A DNA stretch of 64,000 nucleotides from Pseudomonadota bacterium (GTDB lineage: Bacteria; Pseudomonadota; Gammaproteobacteria; Burkholderiales; Burkholderiaceae_C). Under the pieces are notes generated by a model. The model worked only from the letters and a program-made list of their open reading frames with translations. It was not told the origin of the DNA and searched no databases. Below, piece by piece: positions 12,011 through 47,772 of this stretch (positions are counted from its first letter, which is position 1; each line of letters starts with the position of its first letter). The DNA lies in contig JAFEEB010000004.1 in NCBI GenBank assembly GCA_018241325.1, positions 66,503 through 130,502 of the forward strand, given 5' to 3'. Made by a program: the position numbers and the translations under genes.

Positions 12011-12121
12011 TTCACGCACCGCGCTGGACATGCAGCGCCATGGGCAAGCGAGTCCGGTGGGCGACTACAATATCCATAGCTGCACGCGCGCGCTGATTGG
12101 GCGCGCGCGGCCTGTTCGACC

Positions 12122-12970
12122 ATGAATTCACGCCCTGCCACCCCCTCCCGTCGCGCCCTGCTTGCTGCTGGCTTGGCCTGCGCCTGGCCCGCCGCGGCGC
12201 GCAGCGCCGACACGGGCCCCTGGCCGCGCGACGAGCGTGTGCCCGGCGGCGTTGCCCGCATCGATCTGGGGCCGGCCGCCGAACGGCCCCAAGCATTTTC
12301 GGGCGAGATGCCTCTGCTGGTCGTGGGCGACCCGATCAGCTGGACGGCCCTGCTTGGCATCGCCCTGGCGGCAGCGCCCGGCACCCAGAGCATCCGCGTG
12401 CGGCAGGGCGAAGCCGAGCGCAGCGTGGCCGTCACCATCGCCCCCAAGCGCTACGCCGAGCAGCACCTCAAGGTGGCCCCCAAGACCGTGGACCTGTCGC
12501 CCGCCGACTTGGCCCGCTACGAGCGCGAGCGCGATCACCAGCAGCGCGTGATGGCCCGCTTCAGCGCCCCGCCGGCGGCAAACCTGCAGATGCGCCCACC
12601 GGTGCCAGGCAAACGCTCAGACTCGTTCGGCAAGCGGCGCTTCTTCAACGGCCAGCCGCGCAATCCGCACAGCGGCATGGACATCGCGGCCGCCACCGGC
12701 ACGCCCGTGATCGCCCCCTTGCCTGGCACGGTGATCGACGTCGGCGAGTATTTTTTCAACGGCAATACCGTGTGGCTGGACCACGGTGGTGGCCTGCTGT
12801 CCATGATGTGCCACCTGAGCCGCATCGACGTGCAACCGGGCGACCCCCTGGCGGTTGCCCAAGAGCTGGGCCGGGTGGGCGCCACCGGCCGCGTCACGGG
12901 CCCGCACCTGCACTGGAGCGTGGTGCTCAATCGCGCCTCGGTGGACCCGGCCCTGTTTCTCGACGTCTGA
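12122..12970 (+). CDS. secreted M23-family (LytM) peptidase
   Basis: 282 aa. The N-terminus (SRRALLAAGLACAWPAAARS) is a signal peptide with a twin-arginine look. Residues about 180-280 are the M23 domain: NPHSGMDIAAATGTPV supplies the first zinc His and Asp, and GPHLHW the H-x-H. Both are intact, so an active zinc peptidase that cleaves peptidoglycan cross-links is likely; such proteins can also act as cell-division or LPS-export partners when degenerate, which is not the case here. A formylglycine-generating-enzyme-like lipoprotein follows 56 bases downstream on the same strand. Confidence 0.85.
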   Translation: MNSRPATPSRRALLAAGLACAWPAAARSADTGPWPRDERVPGGVARIDLGPAAERPQAFSGEMPLLVVGDPISWTALLGIALAAAPGTQSIRVRQGEAERSVAVTIAPKRYAEQHLKVAPKTVDLSPADLARYERERDHQQRVMARFSAPPAANLQMRPPVPGKRSDSFGKRRFFNGQPRNPHSGMDIAAATGTPVIAPLPGTVIDVGEYFFNGNTVWLDHGGGLLSMMCHLSRIDVQPGDPLAVAQELGRVGATGRVTGPHLHWSVVLNRASVDPALFLDV

Positions 12971-31944: not shown

Positions 31945-34779
31945 ATGACCGAAACCGATTTCTCCGCCCACACCCCCATGATGGCGCAATACCTGCGCCT
32001 GAAAGCCGACTTCCCCGACACCCTGCTGTTCTACCGCATGGGTGACTTCTACGAGATGTTCTATCAGGACGCCGAGCGCGCCGCGGCCCTGCTGGACATC
32101 ACGCTCACCACGCGCGGGCAGTCGGCCGGCCAGCCGATCGCGATGGCGGGCGTGCCGTTTCACTCGGTTGACGGCTACTTGGCGCGCCTGATCAGGCTGG
32201 GCGAGTCGGTGGCGATCTGCGAGCAGGTGGGCGACGTGGCCACCAGCAAGGGCCCGGTGGAGCGCAAGGTGGTGCGCGTGGTCACCCCCGGCACGCTGAC
32301 CGACAGCGAACTGATGAGCGACAAGAGCGAGTCGCTGCTGCTGGCCGTGCACCCCGGCGCGCGGGGCCGCGTGGGCCTGGCCTGGCTGGCCGTGACGCAG
32401 GGCCGGGTGCAGCTGGCCGAGTGCGCCGCCGATGCGCTGCCGGCATGGATCGACCGCATTGCGCCCAGCGAGCTGCTGCTGCCGCAGGACGCCCCGCCCG
32501 CCTTCGAGCAGCGCCTGGGCAACGCACGCGCCGCCCTCACCCACCGCCCCACCTTCCAGTTCGACGCCGCGCTGGGTCGGCGCAAACTGCTGGAGCAGTT
32601 GCAGACCGCCAGCCTCACCGCCTGGAGCGCCGACGACCTGCGCGAGGCCCACGCCGCCGCCGCCGCGCTGCTGACCTACGCCGAGCACACGCAGGGCCGC
32701 GCCCTCACCCACGTGCGCGCGCTGGCGGTCGAGCGCCCGGGCGAGCTGATCGAGCTGCCCGCCACCACGCGCCGCAACCTGGAGCTGGTACAGACCCTGC
32801 GCGGCGAGGACGCGCCCACGCTGTTTTCGCTGCTCGACACCTGCATGACGGGCATGGGCAGCCGCCTGCTGAAAAGCTGGCTGCTGGCGCCGCAACGCGC
32901 GCGCGACGCTGCCAGCGCGCGCCTGCTGGCCATCGGCGCGCTGCGCGAAGGCGGCCGGTGGCAGCGCCTGCGCGCCACGCTCAAGGGCACCAGCGACGTC
33001 GAGCGCATCACGGCCCGCCTGGCGCTCAGCCAAGTGCGCCCGCGCGAGCTGGTGGCGCTGCGCAGTGCACTACAAAAACAAGAGCTACTTGCGCTTGTCC
33101 AGCAAGCGCCAGAGGCATTTTTTACTTCTGATCCTGATCGCGCGCCCGCCCCTCACCCCTCCCTCTCCCCAGAGGGGCGAGGGCGATCGGCCGCGCCCGT
33201 TTTACCCCCTCTCCCCCTGGGAGAGGGTGGGGGTGAGGGCGCACCCCTTGCCTCGCAGCACGGCGAGCGCCCTGCCCTGTTGGCACAAATCGCCAAAGAC
33301 TTGCATCCGCCGGCCGAAGCCCTCGACCTGCTGCAAGCCGCCCTGCAAGACGAGCCCGCCGCGCTGATCCGCGAGGGCGGCGTGATCGCCCCCGGCCTGG
33401 ACGAAGAACTGGACGAGCTGCGCGCCATCCAGGACAACTGCGACGCCTTTTTGCTGGAGCTGGAAGCGCGTGAGCGCACGCGCACCGGCATCGCCAACCT
33501 GCGCGTGCAGTTCAACAAGGTGCACGGCTTCTACATCGAAGTCACGCAAGGCCAGGCCGCCAAGGTGCCCGACGACTACCGCCGCCGTCAGACACTCAAG
33601 AATGCCGAGCGCTTCATCACGCCCGAGCTCAAGGCGTTTGAAGACAAGGCCCTGTCGGCGCAGGAGCGCGCACTGGCGCGCGAGAAGTGGCTGTACGAGC
33701 GCTTGCTGACCCAGTTGCAGCCGCACGTGCCACAGCTCACGCGCTTTGCCAACGCCATCGCCACGCTCGATGCGCTGTGCGCGCTGGCCGAGCGATCGCT
33801 GACCTTGAACTGGTGCGCCCCCGAATTCGTGCGCGAGCCCTGCATCGAGATTCGCGCCGGCCGCCACCCCGTCGTCGAGGCGCGCCTGGCCGAGACCAGC
33901 GGCACGCCCTTCATCCCCAACGACACGCTGCTGGGCCCCAAGGCGCGCATGCAGGTCATCACCGGCCCCAACATGGGCGGCAAGAGCACCTACATGCGCC
34001 AGGTGGCGCTGATCGCGCTGCTGGCCAGCATCGGCTCTCATGTCCCCGCGCAAAGCTGCCGCCTGGGGCCGCTGGACGCCATCCACACCCGCATCGGCGC
34101 CGCCGACGACCTGGCCAACGCCCAGTCCACCTTCATGCTGGAGATGACCGAGGCCGCACAAATCCTGCACGCCGTCGCGCGCCAGGAAGCGCCGGGCCGC
34201 CCCAAGCTTGCTGACTCCCCTCGGGGGACGAGCGAGGCGCAGCCTCGATCCAGGGGCGAATATTCTCTGGTGCTGATGGACGAAATCGGCCGCGGCACCT
34301 CCACCTTCGACGGCCTGGCGCTGGCGTCGGGCATCGCCGCGCACCTGCACGACAAGGCGGGGGCCTTCACCTTGTTTGCCACCCATTACTTCGAGCTGAC
34401 CGAGTTTCCGGCCACCCACCACGCCGCCGTCAACATGCACGTGACCGCGGCCGAAAGCGGGCATGACATCGTCTTTCTGCACGAGCTGCAACCGGGGCCC
34501 GCCAGCCGCAGCTACGGCATCCAGGTCGCACGCCTGGCCGGTGTGCCCGCCGCCGTCGTCAACCACGCGCGCCATGCGCTGGCGCAACTGGAGCAAGGCG
34601 CCGCTGCCCATCAAGCGCAGGTCGATCTGTTCGCGCCGCCGCCGGCGACCGCCGCACCCGAACCCAGCGCCGTGGAAGCGGCGTTGGACGCCATCGACCC
34701 CGACGCCCTCAGCCCGCGCGAGGCGCTGGAGGCGCTGTATAGCCTCAAGGCCAAACTGAACAAGCGCGTGGATTCTTGA
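31945..34779 (+). CDS. mutS: DNA mismatch repair protein MutS with repeat-derived insertions
   Basis: 944 aa, about 80-90 longer than usual. Mismatch-binding domain with [11 protein letters not shown] (residues about 30-40), connector, lever/clamp ([16 protein letters not shown]), and ATPase with Walker [10 protein letters not shown] (674-682), Walker [14 protein letters not shown] and ATHYFELTE. Two in-frame insertions explain the extra length: residues about 376-447 in the lever region (palindromic repeat DNA) and about 749-772 immediately before Walker B. The frame is open throughout, so the protein is probably made, but the second insertion sits within the ATPase fold and could weaken repair. 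Functional status is uncertain. Confidence 0.9.
33070..33285 (+). repeat. two repeat families inside mutS (lever region)
   Basis: 33070-33130 matches a repeat also seen in cobS (38644-38690) and in two intergenic gaps, with the core AGCTACTTGCGCTTG. 33148-33243 is a second, palindromic family: CTCACCCCTCCCTCTCCCC near the left end mirrors GGGAGAGGGTGGGGGTGAGG near the right end, the same pattern as inside cobQ. Both stay in the mutS reading frame. Confidence 0.75.
34190..34258 (+). repeat. palindromic insertion before the MutS Walker B motif
   Basis: Contains GACTCCCCTCGGGGGACGAG and GAGGCGCAGCCTCG, both self-complementary, and encodes about 24 residues ([17 protein letters not shown] and flanks) absent from MutS of other bacteria, where the ILHNAT-type helix runs straight into SLVLMDE. 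A similar CCCCCCGAGGGGG unit lies in the first cobQ insertion. Confidence 0.7.
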
Positions 34780-37792: not shown

Positions 37793-37953
37793 AGAGGCTG
37801 TGAATGGATTCGGCGCGCCCGAAAGGGCTGCCAAAACGTTCCTGATCGAGGCGCAAAACGCAGCCGTAGCTCGGGCTACGGCGAGTATTTGCAACGCCGA
37901 GCAGGGGCGTTTTGGCAGTCAAGGCGGGCGTGAGGAATTTTTTCACAGGCTCT
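37793..37953. repeat. MITE-like palindromic element between hydrolase and cobC
   Basis: About 161 bases with terminal inverted repeats: AGAGGCTGTGAATGGATTC at the left against AGAGCCTGTGAAAAAATTC (complement) at the right, 16 of 19 positions matching. Inner arms GCTGCCAAAACG and CGTTTTGGCAG and a central GCCGTAG/CTACGGC hairpin give a nested structure. It ends at the cobC stop codon. It could also terminate both converging transcripts. Confidence 0.75.
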
Positions 37954-38498
37954 CAACGCTCGATCACCCAGGCCGTGCCAAAGGCCAGGGGCTCGGCCGG
38001 CCAGTCGCGGGCCGCGGTGGGCAGCCGCACGCCGCGCTCCAGCAGGCGCACCGCGCGCACCACACCGGCGTGGGTGATCCACACGGCGTCACGCTGGCGC
38101 CGCTGCCAGCCGTCCCAGGCAGCCGCCACGCGGGCCATCAGATCGGCCACGCATTCGCCGCCGCCGGGGCGGGTGTGGGCGAAGTCGGCCAGCCACGCGT
38201 CGAACTCGGCACGCGGAATGGCCGACCAGGGCCGGCCTTCCCAGGCACCAAAGTTCATCTCGCGCAGGCCCGCGTCGGGCTTCAAGGCCAAATCGGGCCG
38301 CAGCGCCCGCAACTCGTGCGCGAGCAGCTCGCATCTTTGTAGCGTCGATACGCGCAGCGTGGCGCCGTGGGGCAACTCGCGCGCCAGCCGGGCCGCAGCG
38401 CGGCGGGTGGCATCCATCCGCGCGGGCACGTCGCTCTGGCCATAGCAAATGCCGGCGGGCAAGTCCACCTCGGCATGGCGCACCAGCCACAGCTTCAT
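37953..38498 (-). CDS. cobC: alpha-ribazole-5'-phosphate phosphatase
   Basis: 181 aa from the ATG at 38498. Histidine-phosphatase family: LVRHAEVDLPAGICYGQSD contains the R-H-x catalytic motif and the GxCYGxxD block typical of CobC; FGAWEGRPW and THAGVVRA supply the remaining conserved residues. It removes the phosphate in the last steps of nucleotide-loop assembly of cobalamin. It overlaps the cobS stop by 4 bases (ATGA), so the two are coupled. Confidence 0.87.
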   Translation of the reverse strand: MKLWLVRHAEVDLPAGICYGQSDVPARMDATRRAAARLARELPHGATLRVSTLQRCELLAHELRALRPDLALKPDAGLREMNFGAWEGRPWSAIPRAEFDAWLADFAHTRPGGGECVADLMARVAAAWDGWQRRQRDAVWITHAGVVRAVRLLERGVRLPTAARDWPAEPLAFGTAWVIER

Positions 38499-39280
38499 GG
38501 CAGTCGCGCCGCCAGGCCCAGGTACAGGGCCAGCTCGCACACCTGTTGCGTGGCGCCCAGCGTGTCGCCGGTAAAGCCCTGCAGGCGCCCGCGCAACAGG
38601 CGCAGCATGGCCCCCAGCGCCAAGCCCCACAGCAGCAGAGAAACTACAAAACCAATAGCACCTTGCGATTGCCAGACAAGCGCCAGCGCCGGGATGGACC
38701 ACAATGCCGCAGTCCGGGCGCTGCGGCCCGAGAGCGATTCGGCCAGCGGTTTGGACTTGGCCTGCCCCGCATCGCTGACGTAGGGCAGCGCGCGCATCAC
38801 CACCAGGGGCGCCGCGCGCGACAGCACGTGGGCCGCCAGCAGCGCCGCCGCGGCCGCCGCTGCGCCGCGCTGCGCGATCAGGGCCAGCAGCGCCAGTTTG
38901 AGCCCCAGGGCCAGCAGCAGGGCCACCGTGCCGTAGCTGCCGATGCGCGAGTCCTTCATGATCTCCAGCGCGCGCTCGCGGCTGACCTGGCCACCCAGCG
39001 CATCGGCGGTGTCCGCCAGGCCGTCCTCATGAAAAGCGCCCGTCAGCCAGGCCGTGGCCACCGTGCAGAGCACCGCCGCCACCGCCGCGCCCCACAGCGG
39101 CAGCGCAGCGCACAGTGCGGCCGCGCCCACCGCACCCACCACCCAGCCCACGCCCGGCAAGTGCCCAGCGCTCGCGTTCAGCATCGCGGGGCTGTAGCCC
39201 ACCCACGCCGCCAGCCGACCGGTGACGGGAATGCGGGTAAAAAACTGAAGAGCAAGCAGAAAGTGGCGCAACGCGTTCAT
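38495..39280 (-). CDS. cobS: adenosylcobinamide-GDP ribazoletransferase (cobalamin synthase)
   Basis: 261 aa from the ATG at 39280. Hydrophobic inner membrane protein with FLLALQFFTRIPV, LTGAFHEDGLADTADALGG (metal-binding D/E cluster) and KDSRIGSYGTVAL, all CobS signatures. It joins alpha-ribazole (phosphate) to adenosylcobinamide-GDP. A copy of the dispersed AGC-CTTGCG repeat lies within it at 38644-38690, read on the opposite strand. No cobalamin riboswitch was recognised in the 156 bases upstream. Confidence 0.92.
   Translation of the reverse strand: MNALRHFLLALQFFTRIPVTGRLAAWVGYSPAMLNASAGHLPGVGWVVGAVGAAALCAALPLWGAAVAAVLCTVATAWLTGAFHEDGLADTADALGGQVSRERALEIMKDSRIGSYGTVALLLALGLKLALLALIAQRGAAAAAAALLAAHVLSRAAPLVVMRALPYVSDAGQAKSKPLAESLSGRSARTAALWSIPALALVWQSQGAIGFVVSLLLWGLALGAMLRLLRGRLQGFTGDTLGATQQVCELALYLGLAARLP
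38644..38690 (+). repeat. dispersed repeat copy inside cobS
   Basis: Starts CTACAAAACCAATAGC and ends AAGCGCCAG; about 34 of 43 bases match the copy at 33070 in mutS, though the two genes are unrelated and read it on opposite strands. That makes shared ancestry of the DNA more likely than protein constraint. Confidence 0.6.
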
Positions 39281-39436
39281 CGAACAAACCAGCCTGGGCG
39301 GCATTTCACACGCCGCCATGGGCGCGGGATCGGCCGGGCCCTGCGGATTGTAGGCATCGGGCCAATCCGCCGCGGCCCTGTGCACAATGCAGCGAAGGCC
39401 TCTGCGCACGCCCACCACCCCAACCTCCATCACGCC

Positions 39437-39832
39437 ATGCCTCTTGTTCAACACCTCAACTCACCCGGCTTCGCGGCGCTGGGGCTGCCCTTCTCGGAGA
39501 TCGTACGGGTCGACGACACGCTGTACCTGTCGGGCCAGATGGGCACCCTGCCCGGCACGCTGCAACTGGCGCCGGGCGGCATGGCAGCCGAGGCCGAGCA
39601 GGCGCTGCGCAACATCCGCCAGGCGCTCGAGCACCACGGCTTTGCCATGAGCGACGTGGTCAAGTGCACCGTGATGCTGGCCGACATGAACGACTGGCCC
39701 GCCTTCAACACCCTCTACCGGCGCCACTTCAGTGCCCCCTACCCGGCGCGCAGCGCGTTGGGCGGCTGCCAGCTGGCGCTGGGCGGGCGCCTGGAGATCG
39801 AAGCCATGGCCGTCGTCACGGGAGCGCGCTGA
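39437..39832 (+). CDS. RidA-family enamine/imine deaminase
   Basis: 131 aa. Contains LYLSGQMGTLPGT, VVKCTVMLADMNDWPAFNTLYRRHF and the PARSALGGCQLALGGRLEIEAMAV end; the arginine of PARSA is the expected substrate-binding residue, so this is a canonical RidA. It is coupled to the amidase by a one-base overlap (TGATG), suggesting a joint role, for example cleaning up an enamine or acting on an amide-derived product. Confidence 0.85.
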   Translation: MPLVQHLNSPGFAALGLPFSEIVRVDDTLYLSGQMGTLPGTLQLAPGGMAAEAEQALRNIRQALEHHGFAMSDVVKCTVMLADMNDWPAFNTLYRRHFSAPYPARSALGGCQLALGGRLEIEAMAVVTGAR

Positions 39833-43744: not shown

Positions 43745-44515
43745 ATGTCCGATTCAGTTCACGCCGCCGCGCGGCAAGGGTTTGAAAAACAGGCCGCCGC
43801 CTACGCGCGCGGGCGGCCCGACTATCCGGGCGCGCTCGGCGGCTGGCTGCGCGATGCGCTGGGCCTGGGCCCCGGGCGCGTGGTGGCCGACGTGGGCGCG
43901 GGCACCGGCAAGTTCACGCCGCTGCTGGCCGCCACGGGCGCCGACGTGATTGCCGTGGAGCCGGTGGACGCCATGCGCGCCCAGATCACCGCCACGCAGC
44001 CCGCCGTGCGCGCCCTGCCCGGCACGGCCGATGCGCTGCCGCTGGCCGATGCGGCGCTGGACGCCATCGTCTGCGCGCAGGCTTTTCACTGGTTTGCCAC
44101 GCGCGCCGCGCTGGATGAATTTGCGCGCGTGCTCAAGGCCGGCGGACGCCTGGGCCTGGTGTGGAACGTGCGCGACGAGTCGGTGGACTGGGTGGCCGAG
44201 CTGACGCGCATCGTCATCCCGCACGAGGGCGATGCACCCCGCTTTTACAAGGGCAGCTGGCGCCAGGCGTTTCCGCACGCCGCCTTCAGGCCCTTGCACG
44301 AAAGCGTGTTCGAATACGTGCATGAGGGCCCGCCGCAGCAGGTCATCGTCGATCGCTTCATGTCGGTCAGCTTCATCGCCGCACTGCCGGCTGACGAGCA
44401 AGCCGGTGTGCGCGCGCAGATCGAGGACCTGATCACCACGCATCCCGCGCTGCGCGGGCGGGAGATGCTCCGGTTTCCGTATCACACGCGGGCGTTCGTG
44501 GCCGTGCGTCATTGA
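43745..44515 (+). CDS. class I SAM-dependent methyltransferase
   Basis: 256 aa. Rossmann methyltransferase with VVADVGAGTGKFTPLLAATG (motif I), VIAVEPVDAMRA (motif II acidic residue) and DAIVCAQAFHWFATRAAL (motif IV/post). Close in pattern to the UbiE/Trans-aconitate-type group often found beside cobalamin genes, but its substrate is unknown and it need not be in cobalamin synthesis. Its start touches that of cobT and its end overlaps cobQ by 7 bases on the opposite strand. Confidence 0.8.
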   Translation: MSDSVHAAARQGFEKQAAAYARGRPDYPGALGGWLRDALGLGPGRVVADVGAGTGKFTPLLAATGADVIAVEPVDAMRAQITATQPAVRALPGTADALPLADAALDAIVCAQAFHWFATRAALDEFARVLKAGGRLGLVWNVRDESVDWVAELTRIVIPHEGDAPRFYKGSWRQAFPHAAFRPLHESVFEYVHEGPPQQVIVDRFMSVSFIAALPADEQAGVRAQIEDLITTHPALRGREMLRFPYHTRAFVAVRH

Positions 44516-46644
44516 ATCAGCGCCGCCAGCACGCCGGGCTCAAAAGCGCGCTCGATCGCATCGGCCAGGCCGTCGAACACCGCGCCCAGCGAGGGCGCGC
44601 CCGCGCCAAACAGCGCCCGCAGCACGGCCGCATCCTCGAACAAGCCGTGCAGGTAAACGCCCAGCACGTTGCCTGCAAGGTTCTGCCAGGCCAGGCCCGC
44701 CATCACCTCGCGCGCCACGTCGCCCTGGGCCGCCATGGCCGGATGCTGGGCGGTGCGACCGCTGTGGATTTCGTAGCCCGACACCGGCACGCTGGCCAGT
44801 GCCGACCACGGGCCGATCACATCGCCAAAAGACCGCGTTGCGTGGCGCACCGTCTTGTCGGGCTCGAAGCGGGTCACCAGAGGCAGCAAGCCCAGGCCCG
44901 GCCCATTGCCCTCGGGCTCGACGCCGTGCAAATCGATCAGCGCCTCGCCCAGCATCTGCAAGCCGCCGCAAATGCCCAGCACGCGCCCACCCTGCGCGGC
45001 GTGCGCGGCAATGGCCGCATCCAGCCGCTGCGCGCGCAGCCAGGCCAGGTCGGCCGCGGTGGCCTTGCTGCCGGGCAGGATGATCCAGTCGGCGCCCGCC
45101 AGCACAGCCGGGTGGCGCGCCCAGGTGAGCGACACGCCGGGCACGTTCTTCAGCGGCTGGAATTCGTCCAGGTTGCTGATGCGGGGGTAGGCGACGATGG
45201 CCACGCGGGTGGGCTTGCTCCCTCCCCCGCTGGGGGAGAGTTGGGGTGGGGGCGCGGCGGTGGCAGTGGCAGTGGGCTCTGCGGTCGCGAGCCCCCATCC
45301 CGGCCTTCCCCCAGTGGAGGAAGGAGCAAGACCCTCACCCCGGCCCTCTCCCGCAAGCGGGAGAGGGGGCAAAACCGCGTCGGGGTGAGCCGGCTCCGGT
45401 CTTGCCCTCTCGCCCCTCTGGGGAGAGGTTTGGGGTGAGGCGCACGATGCGCGTCGCGCAGCGGCCTGTTCGCTCTGGGGAGAGGTTTGGAGTGAGGCGC
45501 ACGATGCGCGTCGCGCAGCGGCCTGTTCGCTCCTTCTCCCGCTTGCGGGAGAAGGTTGGGCTGAAGCGCACGATGCGTTTCGCGCAGCGGACTGTTCGCT
45601 TCCTCTCCCGCTTGCGGGAGAGGGTTGGGGTGAGGCGCACGATGCGTTTCGCGCAGCGGACTGTTCGCTCCCTCTCCCGCTTGCGGGAGAGGGTTGGGGT
45701 GAGGGTACTGCGCCCCCATCGTCAAACACCCCATCCTCCTCCGGCAAGCCATGGCCAAAACGCATCGGCACCACGGCCACCGTGGGCACGCCGGTGAGTT
45801 GCTGCAACTGCTCGGGCGCCGGCGCCAGCAGGCTGGCATCGCCACGAAACTTGTTCAGCACAAAGCCGCGGATGCGCGCGCGATCGGCCTCGGGCAGCAG
45901 CGCCCAGGTGCCGTACAGGTGGGCAAAGGCGCCGCCGCGGTCGATGTCGGTCACCAGCAGGCAGCGCGCATCGGCGTGGCGCGCCACGCGCAGGTTCACC
46001 ACATCGCTGGCCATCAGGTTGATCTCGGCCGGCGAGCCCGCGCCCTCGATCACCACCACGTCGTTTTCGGCGCGCAGCGCGTCCAGCGCGGCGGCGATCT
46101 GCGGCCACACGCGCTCGCTGCGCCCGCGCCAGGGCAGCGCCGTCAGCTCGCGGCTGACCTGTCCCAGCAGCACCACCTGGCTGTGCGTGTCGGCCTCGGG
46201 CTTGAGCAGCAGCGGGTTCATGCGCACGTCCGGCACGGCGCGCGCGGCCAGGGCCTGGAAGTATTGGGCCGAGCCGATTTCACCGCCGGGGAACGGGCCC
46301 CCACGCTCCCCTGCTGCGCATGGTGCGCTGCCCCCCGAGGGGGCCACACCCCGCCTTGGGGGCGGCCTGGCGGCGGGGTGGCCACTGCCCTCACCCCAAC
46401 CCTCTCCCGCATGCGGGAGAGGGGGTCGGTCGGCGCCGGTGTTTGCTCCCTCGCCCCTCTGGGGAGAGGGCTGGGGTGAGGGGCCGGCGCCCGCCACCAC
46501 CCTTGCGTTGTTGCTCATGTTCTGCGCCTTGAACGGCGCCACGCGCAAGCCCATGTTGGCGTAGTGCCGGCACAGCGCCGTAGCGATCCAGCTTTTGCCG
46601 GCGCCGCTGCTGGTGCCCAGCACCATCACGCACACGGCCGTCAT
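44509..46644 (-). CDS. cobQ: cobyric acid synthase with two repeat-derived insertions
   Basis: 711 aa against about 480-490 for typical CobQ. P-loop VLGTSSGAGKS at the N-terminus, then FKAQNMSNN, GGEIGSAQ, MNPLLLKPE and the C-terminal class I glutamine amidotransferase domain with ILPGSKAT and the catalytic Cys in GICGGLQMLGEA, plus YLHGLFED. It amidates four side chains of adenosylcobyrinic acid diamide. The extra length is two proline/serine/arginine-rich blocks: about residues 52-119, between NNARVV and GGEIG, and about 312-478, between the synthetase and amidotransferase halves. The frame is open through both. Whether the protein works is untested. Confidence 0.88.
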   Translation of the reverse strand: MTAVCVMVLGTSSGAGKSWIATALCRHYANMGLRVAPFKAQNMSNNARVVAGAGPSPQPSPQRGEGANTGADRPPLPHAGEGWGEGSGHPAARPPPRRGVAPSGGSAPCAAGERGGPFPGGEIGSAQYFQALAARAVPDVRMNPLLLKPEADTHSQVVLLGQVSRELTALPWRGRSERVWPQIAAALDALRAENDVVVIEGAGSPAEINLMASDVVNLRVARHADARCLLVTDIDRGGAFAHLYGTWALLPEADRARIRGFVLNKFRGDASLLAPAPEQLQQLTGVPTVAVVPMRFGHGLPEEDGVFDDGGAVPSPQPSPASGRGSEQSAARNASCASPQPSPASGRGSEQSAARNASCASAQPSPASGRRSEQAAARRASCASLQTSPQSEQAAARRASCASPQTSPQRGERARPEPAHPDAVLPPLPLAGEGRGEGLAPSSTGGRPGWGLATAEPTATATAAPPPQLSPSGGGSKPTRVAIVAYPRISNLDEFQPLKNVPGVSLTWARHPAVLAGADWIILPGSKATAADLAWLRAQRLDAAIAAHAAQGGRVLGICGGLQMLGEALIDLHGVEPEGNGPGLGLLPLVTRFEPDKTVRHATRSFGDVIGPWSALASVPVSGYEIHSGRTAQHPAMAAQGDVAREVMAGLAWQNLAGNVLGVYLHGLFEDAAVLRALFGAGAPSLGAVFDGLADAIERAFEPGVLAALIQ
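45209..45712. repeat. large repeat insertion in cobQ with tandem units
   Basis: Four units beginning GCGCACGATGCG start at about 45440, 45496, 45566 and 45634 (period 56-70 bases); each continues CGCGCAGCGG then CTGTTCGCT, and most end with the palindrome CTCTCCCGCTTGCGGGAGAG. The left part carries further related palindromes. It translates to PSPASGRGSEQ-type repeats, encoded on the minus strand. Confidence 0.85.
46289..46492. repeat. second repeat insertion in cobQ, near its 5' end
   Basis: Contains CCAACCCTCTCCCGCATGCG and CCTCGCCCCTCTGGGGAGAG palindromes (46391-46471) from the same family as in mutS, plus GCCCCCCGAGGGGGCC at 46331-46346 from the other family. It adds about 68 residues immediately after the glutamine/Mg-binding NMSNN motif. 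Confidence 0.8.
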
Positions 46645-47666
46645 GCGCGGGCCTTCGGCGTATGCAGCGCGTGCATCAGCGCGTCTTGCGTGGCCGGTGG
46701 CGCCACGGCCATGCGCACATGGCCAGGCAGGCCGAAGCTGGCGCCATCGCGCAGCTTGATGCCATGCCGGCGCAGGGCGGACAGCACGTTTTGCAGATCA
46801 AATGGGCCGCCAGCGCCCACCCCATCGGCGCGAGAAGCTACGAAAAAATGAGCGTCGCTGGGCTCCACCTGCCAACCCGCATGGCGCAGCGCATCGACCT
46901 GGCGCGCCTTCCAGCCGCGCAGCGTGGCGCGGCAGGCGTACAGCCAGTCCTGGCAATCCGTCGTGGCCCAGCATTGCAGCAACGCCACGCCATGCGCGCC
47001 CAGCGGCCACGACGGCGCCAGCACCTGCACGCGCGCCCGCAGCGCGGGCGGCGCGTCGGCCGGTGCCACGGCATAGGCCGCGCGCACCCCCGTCAGGCCC
47101 AGCGCCTTGTTGGGAGTGATGAGGCGCCACACGCGCTCCAGCGCCGCGCCCTCCAGGCTGGGCGCGCCGTGCAGGCGCAGCGGCGCGTAGGCCTCGTCCA
47201 GCACCAGCGTTTGCCCGCAGTGCAAGGCCGCCACCCACTCGGCCAGATCGGGCTGGGGCTGGCCCAACGGGCTGGAGGGCTCGCAGGCCCACAACAGCGC
47301 CGCTTGCGCCGCATCGGGCGTGATCACCAGGCCCGCCGCTTGCGCCGCGCGGGCGTAGTCGCCGTAGGCGTGCGCGGGTTGAGTCATGGCCGCGCCGGGC
47401 CCCGCCGTGAGCGCCACCGCCACGCTGATGCGCTGGATGAACTCGCTGGCGCTGGCGGCCAGCACGATGCGCGCCGGCACCACGCCGTGCCAGGCCGCCA
47501 GCTGGCGCGTGAGGGCGGTGTAGGCGGGGTCGGGGTAGTGGCGCGCGTCGGCCGTGCGCAGCGCGTGCAGCGCGGGCGGCCAAGGCCCGCAGGCGTTGCC
47601 GTTGCTGGACAAATCGTGTGCCGGCACGCCCTCGGCGTCGGGGCCGCCGTGAACGCTGCTCAGCAT
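46641..47666 (-). CDS. cobD: L-threonine-O-3-phosphate decarboxylase (aminotransferase fold)
   Basis: 341 aa. PLP-dependent class I/II aminotransferase fold. LSSNGNACGPWP at the N-terminus, VLDEAYAPLRL (PLP-contacting D and Y) and the PLP lysine in TPNKALGLTGVRAAY mark CobD/CobC-type enzymes. It produces (R)-1-aminopropan-2-ol phosphate, the linker of the nucleotide loop. It overlaps cobQ by 4 bases and is followed upstream by cbiB after a repeat-filled gap. Named cobD after the Salmonella scheme; in Pseudomonas nomenclature this is cobC. Confidence 0.85.
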   Translation of the reverse strand: MLSSVHGGPDAEGVPAHDLSSNGNACGPWPPALHALRTADARHYPDPAYTALTRQLAAWHGVVPARIVLAASASEFIQRISVAVALTAGPGAAMTQPAHAYGDYARAAQAAGLVITPDAAQAALLWACEPSSPLGQPQPDLAEWVAALHCGQTLVLDEAYAPLRLHGAPSLEGAALERVWRLITPNKALGLTGVRAAYAVAPADAPPALRARVQVLAPSWPLGAHGVALLQCWATTDCQDWLYACRATLRGWKARQVDALRHAGWQVEPSDAHFFVASRADGVGAGGPFDLQNVLSALRRHGIKLRDGASFGLPGHVRMAVAPPATQDALMHALHTPKARA

Positions 47667-47670
47667 GGGA

Positions 47671-47720
47671 TTACTTCACATTTCATAGCTTTCTGCGCTT
47701 GCTGGATGAGCTCAAGCGGG
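47671..47720 (+). repeat. dispersed AGCTTnCTGCGCTTG repeat, intergenic copy
   Basis: CATAGCTTTCTGCGCTTGCT followed by GGATGAGCTCAAGCGGG matches the family in mutS, cobS and at 60830. It lies at the 5' side of cobD, between it and cbiB. Confidence 0.5.
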
Positions 47721-47772
47721 CAATTGTGCATTTATTTCAGCTGTTTCAAAGCGCTGCCGACGACCCGCAGCA

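Follow-up and report, generated by a model that had tools for sequence, protein, structure and literature searches.

REPINs are dispersed pairs of inverted hairpins separated by a spacer, and are linked to a RAYT gene. GTAG and CGTC REPs and their dimers have been described in frame within genes, often genes of DNA repair (Di Nocera et al. 2013, PMC3733652), and the hosts named in that account include uvrA with double inserts (two genes, in O. terrae), UvrD, recBCD, DNA polymerase I and DnaE2. A mutator effect of such in-frame REPs was put forward by the same authors as speculation (PMC3733652). Rickettsia palindromic elements, of about 150 bp, are likewise kept in frame within unrelated proteins (PMC10969869). 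The TM intrastrand triplex motif, for which inverted pairs were reported, is described as always intergenic in E. coli MG1655, with no tie to mobile elements found in that study (Holder et al. 2015, PMC4666352). The palindromic repeats described in Rhodoferax are CRISPR (PMC2755013). Among the papers listed for short words of the repeat designated A below, no title dealt with such repeats; and among the titles listed in searches of a mostly non-subscription literature, which extended to repeats in Comamonadaceae, none concerned repeat A or repeats inside mutS.

Here, we describe repeat-derived inserts in the mutS gene of a Burkholderiales genome, contained in a window of 64,000 nucleotides from a 93-contig draft assembly. 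Judging by its named relatives, the host probably belongs to Comamonadaceae. A first-pass annotation of the window had noted repeat DNA within the region encoding the lever of MutS, and this observation is confirmed, corrected and extended by the analysis that follows. The gene (31945-34779, plus strand) is predicted to encode 944 amino acids in a single reading frame that stays open through two repeat-derived inserts, in agreement with the annotation, which held that the frame is kept. Pfam identifies all five MutS domains (I-V) in the 944-residue protein, and the catalytic motifs of this insert-bearing MutS are intact.

Insert 1 (33115-33273, plus strand) contributes 53 residues (391-443) to the lever in a MAFFT alignment with relatives, its exact ends depending on the alignment. 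The lever comprises 124 residues here versus 71 in 23 of the 24 same-genus MutS proteins with a complete region, the remaining one having 81, and it is shorter than 124 residues in all 80 MutS proteins aligned from other genomes (MAFFT; longest, 103). Insert 1 was seen only in this genome, being absent from 24/24 genus proteins and from 80/80 others, two sets that overlap in at least three genomes. In each of 30 genomes from other genera, MutS was matched once and without a split, although the match in G044 was partial (query 11-735); this excludes inserts of the 53-residue type but not smaller ones, since a match can remain whole across some 30 inserted residues. The annotation had attributed about 50 extra lever residues to palindromic DNA of the type found in cobQ, and both the length and the kinship hold, the insert matching the cobQ palindromes at 78% over 111 nt. 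It had, however, marked a segment of 216 bases, and novelty of that whole segment is ruled out: alignment with the MutS of relatives shows the lever to be longer than in all of them, but the stretch occupied by repeat A is common to relatives and of the same length there. In one relative (G001; L114/L138), the lever site is the point at which MutS breaks into two frames, which may reflect an assembly error.

A second insert, absent from the earlier account of mutS, lies directly before Walker B. Insert 2 (34186-34263, plus strand) consists of repeat C DNA, encodes 26 residues (748-773) and is missing from all 76 other-genome MutS proteins and all 25 genus proteins that span this region in full; the count leaves out one genus row and four of the 80 rows, which were cut off at this point. 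Repeat C has 30 matches in its own genome, itself included, the others being no longer than 54 nt, and the best of these falls within the frame of phosphoglycerate kinase. Its single-strand fold (z -0.2) is not beyond that of shuffled sequence. Several tandem copies of repeat C are present in an AMP-binding (acyl-CoA ligase-like) frame of the same genome (G000:C46; L179/L180/L187), and the uvrA gene of the relative G006 (L203) bears an in-frame insert that resembles repeat C by eye and is lacking from uvrA of G005.

The core of insert 1 (33150-33242, plus strand) is repeat B, a head-to-head, inverted pair of GC-rich, TM-like hairpins whose fold as DNA is beyond that of shuffled sequence (z -3.8). 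In a search of its own genome that scored 40 of 103 candidates, repeat B gave at least 68 matches at E<=1, counting the mutS copy; the best other full-length copy matches the mutS copy at 89%. No target-site duplication was clear by eye. The possibility that almost all frames of B and C are open proved wrong for B, the core of which is open in three of six frames, as compared with two of six for insert 1 as a whole, five of six for insert 2 and four of six for repeat A. Within the window, B-type inserts also occupy cobQ (44509-46644, minus strand), a single frame of 711 codons: one copy lies in frame near the start of the gene (46387-46493, minus strand) and matches the DNA of the mutS lever insert, and a cluster of triplex-motif copies and halves lies in frame in mid gene (45332-45705, minus strand). 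The CbiA domain of this protein, 112 profile positions, is spread across 290 residues. Altogether, repeat B was found in frame in mutS, trmJ, thiL, uvrA, nnrE and cobQ.

Repeat B resembles each of the described systems in part. Like a REPIN, it consists of a pair of palindromes in inverted arrangement, separated by a spacer, and is dispersed through the genome. Unlike the REPIN case, no linkage of A or B to the sole Y1 transposase gene was found: that gene is the only one with PF01797 that was detected, its 3.3-kb locus (L201) holds no A match, and contig C39, which carries it, holds no B match, so that a Y1 transposase locus flanked by the repeats was rejected. With respect to the TM motif, whose plan comprises a C-rich arm, a complementary G-rich arm and a third GGGTGAGGG-type arm, half of repeat B follows that plan. 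On the minus strand, 33150-33183 reads CCCTCGCCCC-TCT-GGGGAGAGGG-A-GGGGTGAGGG, which nearly equals the E. coli motif; the folding computed here is that of the hairpin only. The motif used in this comparison was derived from a control oligonucleotide in PMC4666352 and was matched in 4559 of 5426 E. coli genomes. In contrast to the intergenic TM motif of E. coli, repeat B lies within genes, at sites where relatives are without it. Repeat B (33150-33242) also differs from the GTAG/CGTC REPs in having neither GTAG nor CGTC on either strand, and in the presence of a putative landing-site repeat, a feature that the account in PMC3733652, as far as consulted, does not describe. The likeness to the Rickettsia elements is one of residence, in-frame repeats within unrelated proteins; the host is a different one, and several repeat families are present here, one beside another.

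The putative landing-site repeat, repeat A, is a palindromic dispersed repeat of about 65 nt, a copy of which occupies 33068-33127 (plus strand) in mutS and is read there as native lever residues, approximately 375-395. A hidden Markov model from which the mutS copies were left out gives 55.3 bits at this position. With 40 of 84 candidates scored, and counting the mutS copy, its own genome contains at least 44 matches at E<=1 and at least 14 at E<1e-3; both repeat units thus occur elsewhere in the genome. A covariance model of A finds at least 85 copies, all 85 scored candidates having matched. The annotation had also placed the 61-base repeat adjoining the palindromic DNA in cobS and in two gaps. 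It is indeed a real dispersed repeat, with copies in cobS (38643-38698, plus strand, 24.9 bits, within a gene at 38495-39454, minus strand, assigned to CobS by Pfam) and in gaps at 12064-12127 and 47671-47725, but it adds no residues to MutS. Further A copies were observed beside the cobalamin genes, in a histidine phosphatase gene (37953-38702) and an aminotransferase gene (46641-47666, minus strand).

The distribution of repeat A in mutS extends well outside this genome. The covariance model, with no more than 85 copies counted in any one genome, gave a match in 28 of 60 family genomes, representing 27 of 59 genera. A hidden Markov model of 22 copies from outside mutS detected A at the same lever site in G006 (2e-17) and G027 (3e-17), and in Simplicispira, Polaromonas and Comamonas at 4e-9 to 1e-5, figures that may carry some bias from the use of the mutS segment as the query with which the A seeds were found. 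Among 30 further genera, A was present at the lever (E<1e-6) in five, all with at least 83 scored A copies; weak lever matches (4 to 19 bits) were obtained in 9 of 14 genomes with at least 29 scored copies, and none in the 12 genomes with two copies or fewer, G033, where the lever motif was not located, being left out. The lever segment has equal length with or without A, and A is therefore not seen as an insertion in mutS. On the evidence of these sequence comparisons, repeat A has long been present in mutS and is common to relatives, and B and C alone are new.

Elsewhere, the record of repeat A differs from gene to gene. At the trmJ site, five A-poor genera are 14-18 residues shorter than G027, A being evident in G036 (38.7 bits) and scoring weakly in G032 (14.4 bits), and here repeat A looks like an insertion on the aligned sequences. 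At the uvrA site the five A-poor genera are again shorter, and the A-rich G032 and G036 are longer without an A match. At the thiL site, A is found in G032 (29.9 bits) and G036 (22.6 bits), and the A-poor G066 has equal length. Among the genera compared, only this genus has A at the nnrE site. The single-strand fold of repeat A (z -1.3) is not beyond that of shuffled sequence, and maintenance of A by synonymous-site constraint within the genus was rejected, pS being 0.383 versus 0.363 gene-wide, with 470 of 805 other windows of that comparison at or below 0.383. Over 18 aligned codons, GC3 within A is 0.33 versus 0.91 in the mutS analysed here, and 0.39-0.61 versus 0.86-0.94 in nine relatives; the A codons are AT-rich across ten species, though their synonymous sites change at the same pace as others.

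A comparison of four genes besides mutS, fetched from the relatives G005, G006 and G027, bears on the order in which the repeats arrived. In its own genome, the insert-bearing strain carries A and B together in nnrE, trmJ, thiL and uvrA, which with mutS makes five genes. In the three relatives, A occupies the same in-frame site of the four genes in 12 of 12 cases (E <= 4e-6), and B is missing from all of them except uvrA of G005, which has B. As B-type repeats are present at E<=1e-6 in 17 of 29 genus genomes, the relatives could formally have lost B from individual genes. Outside mutS, A lies within 60 nt of 14 of 25 B sites, where 1.24 would be expected (Poisson 7e-11); the expected count was taken from the density of A elsewhere in the same loci, and the limits of B clusters were set by hand. 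Without hand-set clusters, A is within 60 nt of 12 of 29 raw B loci. Repeat C served as a control, with A within 60 nt of 0 of 22 sites against 1.45 expected, a weak control in that several of its sites are 17-nt matches. Together with the genes of the relatives, these counts indicate that B probably lands preferentially at sites beside a resident A. The spacing between A and B varies from about 9 to 50 nt and their orientation is not constant, which indicates that any such targeting is loose.

At many sites A comes before B with their relative orientation unchanged, as would be seen if the two belonged to a single composite element that moved whole, with lone A copies as its remnants. We regard this as unlikely, though more probable than the other alternatives. 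Relatives hold A alone at the same sites in mutS, nnrE, trmJ, thiL and uvrA (G006 and G027 in the last case), and A is present in 27 of the 59 genera sampled; movement of A and B as one unit was rejected on the strength of the relatives' genes that have A at the site and lack B.

Outside its inserts, MutS evolves in an ordinary manner. Its dN/dS relative to five relatives is 0.205-0.244, within the range of 0.177-0.309 found among the relatives themselves, and it has 11 unique residues compared with 7 and 18. An AlphaFold2 model (34 sequences) has a mean pLDDT of 80.5 with mostly confident domains. The pLDDT falls below 50 at residues 394-439, in insert 1, and 749-770, in insert 2, with confident helices neighbouring them, and also in three shorter stretches (721-724, 836-854 and 889-905). 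Placed on E. coli MutS (7ou2_A), insert 1 falls between residues 388 and 405 and insert 2 between residues 689 and 691. Both inserts are thus predicted to be disordered, and these observations fit their being tolerated loops, with which an effect on activity is still compatible.

That the inserts are adaptive, altering MutS activity and raising or tuning the mutation rate, as Di Nocera et al. speculated for other repair genes, appears slightly less probable again than a composite element. Repair genes are among the targets (mutS twice, uvrA and a UvrD-type helicase, with radA- and recG-like frames by eye), and insert 2 adjoins Walker B. Many further genes, however, are also targets, including pgk, gcvP, cobQ, thiL, nnrE and an AMP-binding enzyme, and both the ordinary dN/dS and the predicted disorder of the inserts argue in the same direction. 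The suggestion in the first-pass annotation that the mutS repeat could tune mutation rate accordingly finds no support, the motifs being intact, and a gain of function in MutS is not supported.

More improbable still is that the inserts mark a decaying mutS whose role is being taken over by another MutS. A second MutS-like frame does exist, on the 6.5-kb contig C75 (L262, G000:C75:1500-6564), but the MutS described here changes no faster than its relatives, as judged by its unique residues, and retains its motifs. Even with the twelve MutS proteins most similar to it among those compared, the C75 protein shares only 50-54% identity, the best match being from an unclassified Pseudomonadota assembly (L109), a divergence that suggests a foreign contig, a paralogue being the other option. 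An assembly artefact is the least credible account: the assembly is a draft and repeats are where assemblers err, but both inserts are in frame and diverged from other copies (89% for the best full-length B), the pattern recurs in several genes, and B in uvrA is shared with G005.

On sequence evidence, copies of A-, B- and C-type repeats reside in frame within unrelated proteins. Pfam assigns the copy-bearing frames to UvrA, UvrD-type helicase, CobQ-type, penicillin-binding, GcvP, Mur ligase, AMP-binding and FtsX-type proteins, and to PGK, ParB, leucyl-tRNA synthetase, TilS, FGGY kinase and others; an HrpA-type frame was named by eye, and one frame (L011) has no Pfam match. Some of the short A and C matches in other genes may be due to chance.

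The lever site also bears an insert in a second lineage. In a betaproteobacterial metagenome assembly (G087; L042), MutS has 32 extra residues at the same site, encoded in frame by a palindrome with 26-bp arms (fold z -7.9). The palindrome has 40 matches in that assembly at E<=1, of which two represent its own locus, read on either strand; matches at E<1e-4 occur at 34 other places, most spanning positions 21-74 of the 109-nt query. It is not significantly similar to repeat A or to either of the mutS inserts described above (best E 0.14), and the presence of this different palindrome implies that in-frame palindromes have entered the lever site on two or more occasions. In G070, the lever DNA has 26 weak matches in its own genome at E<=1, itself included, the best other at 3e-5.

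We consider the following ordered scenario likely as a whole: an old A in the lever, B arriving next to it, C added before Walker B, and a preference of B for A. An in-frame palindromic repeat A would have sat in the mutS lever of this lineage for a long time, translated like the rest of the gene. On the branch that gave rise to this species, a mobile palindrome, the REPIN- or MITE-like repeat B, would have entered beside A and extended the protein by 53 residues, and the third family, repeat C, would have added 26 residues before Walker B. Landing of B would most likely follow extrusion of the A hairpin as single-stranded DNA at replication, with a trans-acting transposase of the HUH/Y1 type, or a template switch, joining the stem-loop of B at A. 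Copies that break the frame or the fold were presumably purged, and the survivors would be those forming in-frame, disordered and tolerated loops.

Tentatively, and at somewhat less than even confidence, this scenario may be extended to the family. Core genes of Comamonadaceae would hold ancient in-frame palindromes as landing pads, alongside which current mobile palindromes insert. The MutS lever would be a recurrent integration site occupied in each host by DNA of that host's repeats: by A in several genera, by a different and weakly supported family in G070 and by another palindrome in G087, and proteins would grow by in-frame layers.

Already in print are REPs that lie in frame within genes of DNA repair (Di Nocera et al. 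2013) and the triplex motif that repeat B matches (Holder et al. 2015). Apparently new, in that we have not seen them in print, are MutS as a double target, repeat A itself and the preference of B for A; the word mutS does not occur in the main text of PMC3733652. The case is one of mobile palindromes building protein sequence in two ordered steps, in which an old translated repeat is common to several species (in mutS, to several genera) and a younger repeat then adjoins it in several genes of one genome. The presence of a triplex-motif repeat in genes where relatives lack it bears on the mobility of that repeat, and a phenomenon of the Rickettsia type is extended to Burkholderiales. Finally, the effect of such an insert on a repair enzyme becomes directly testable.
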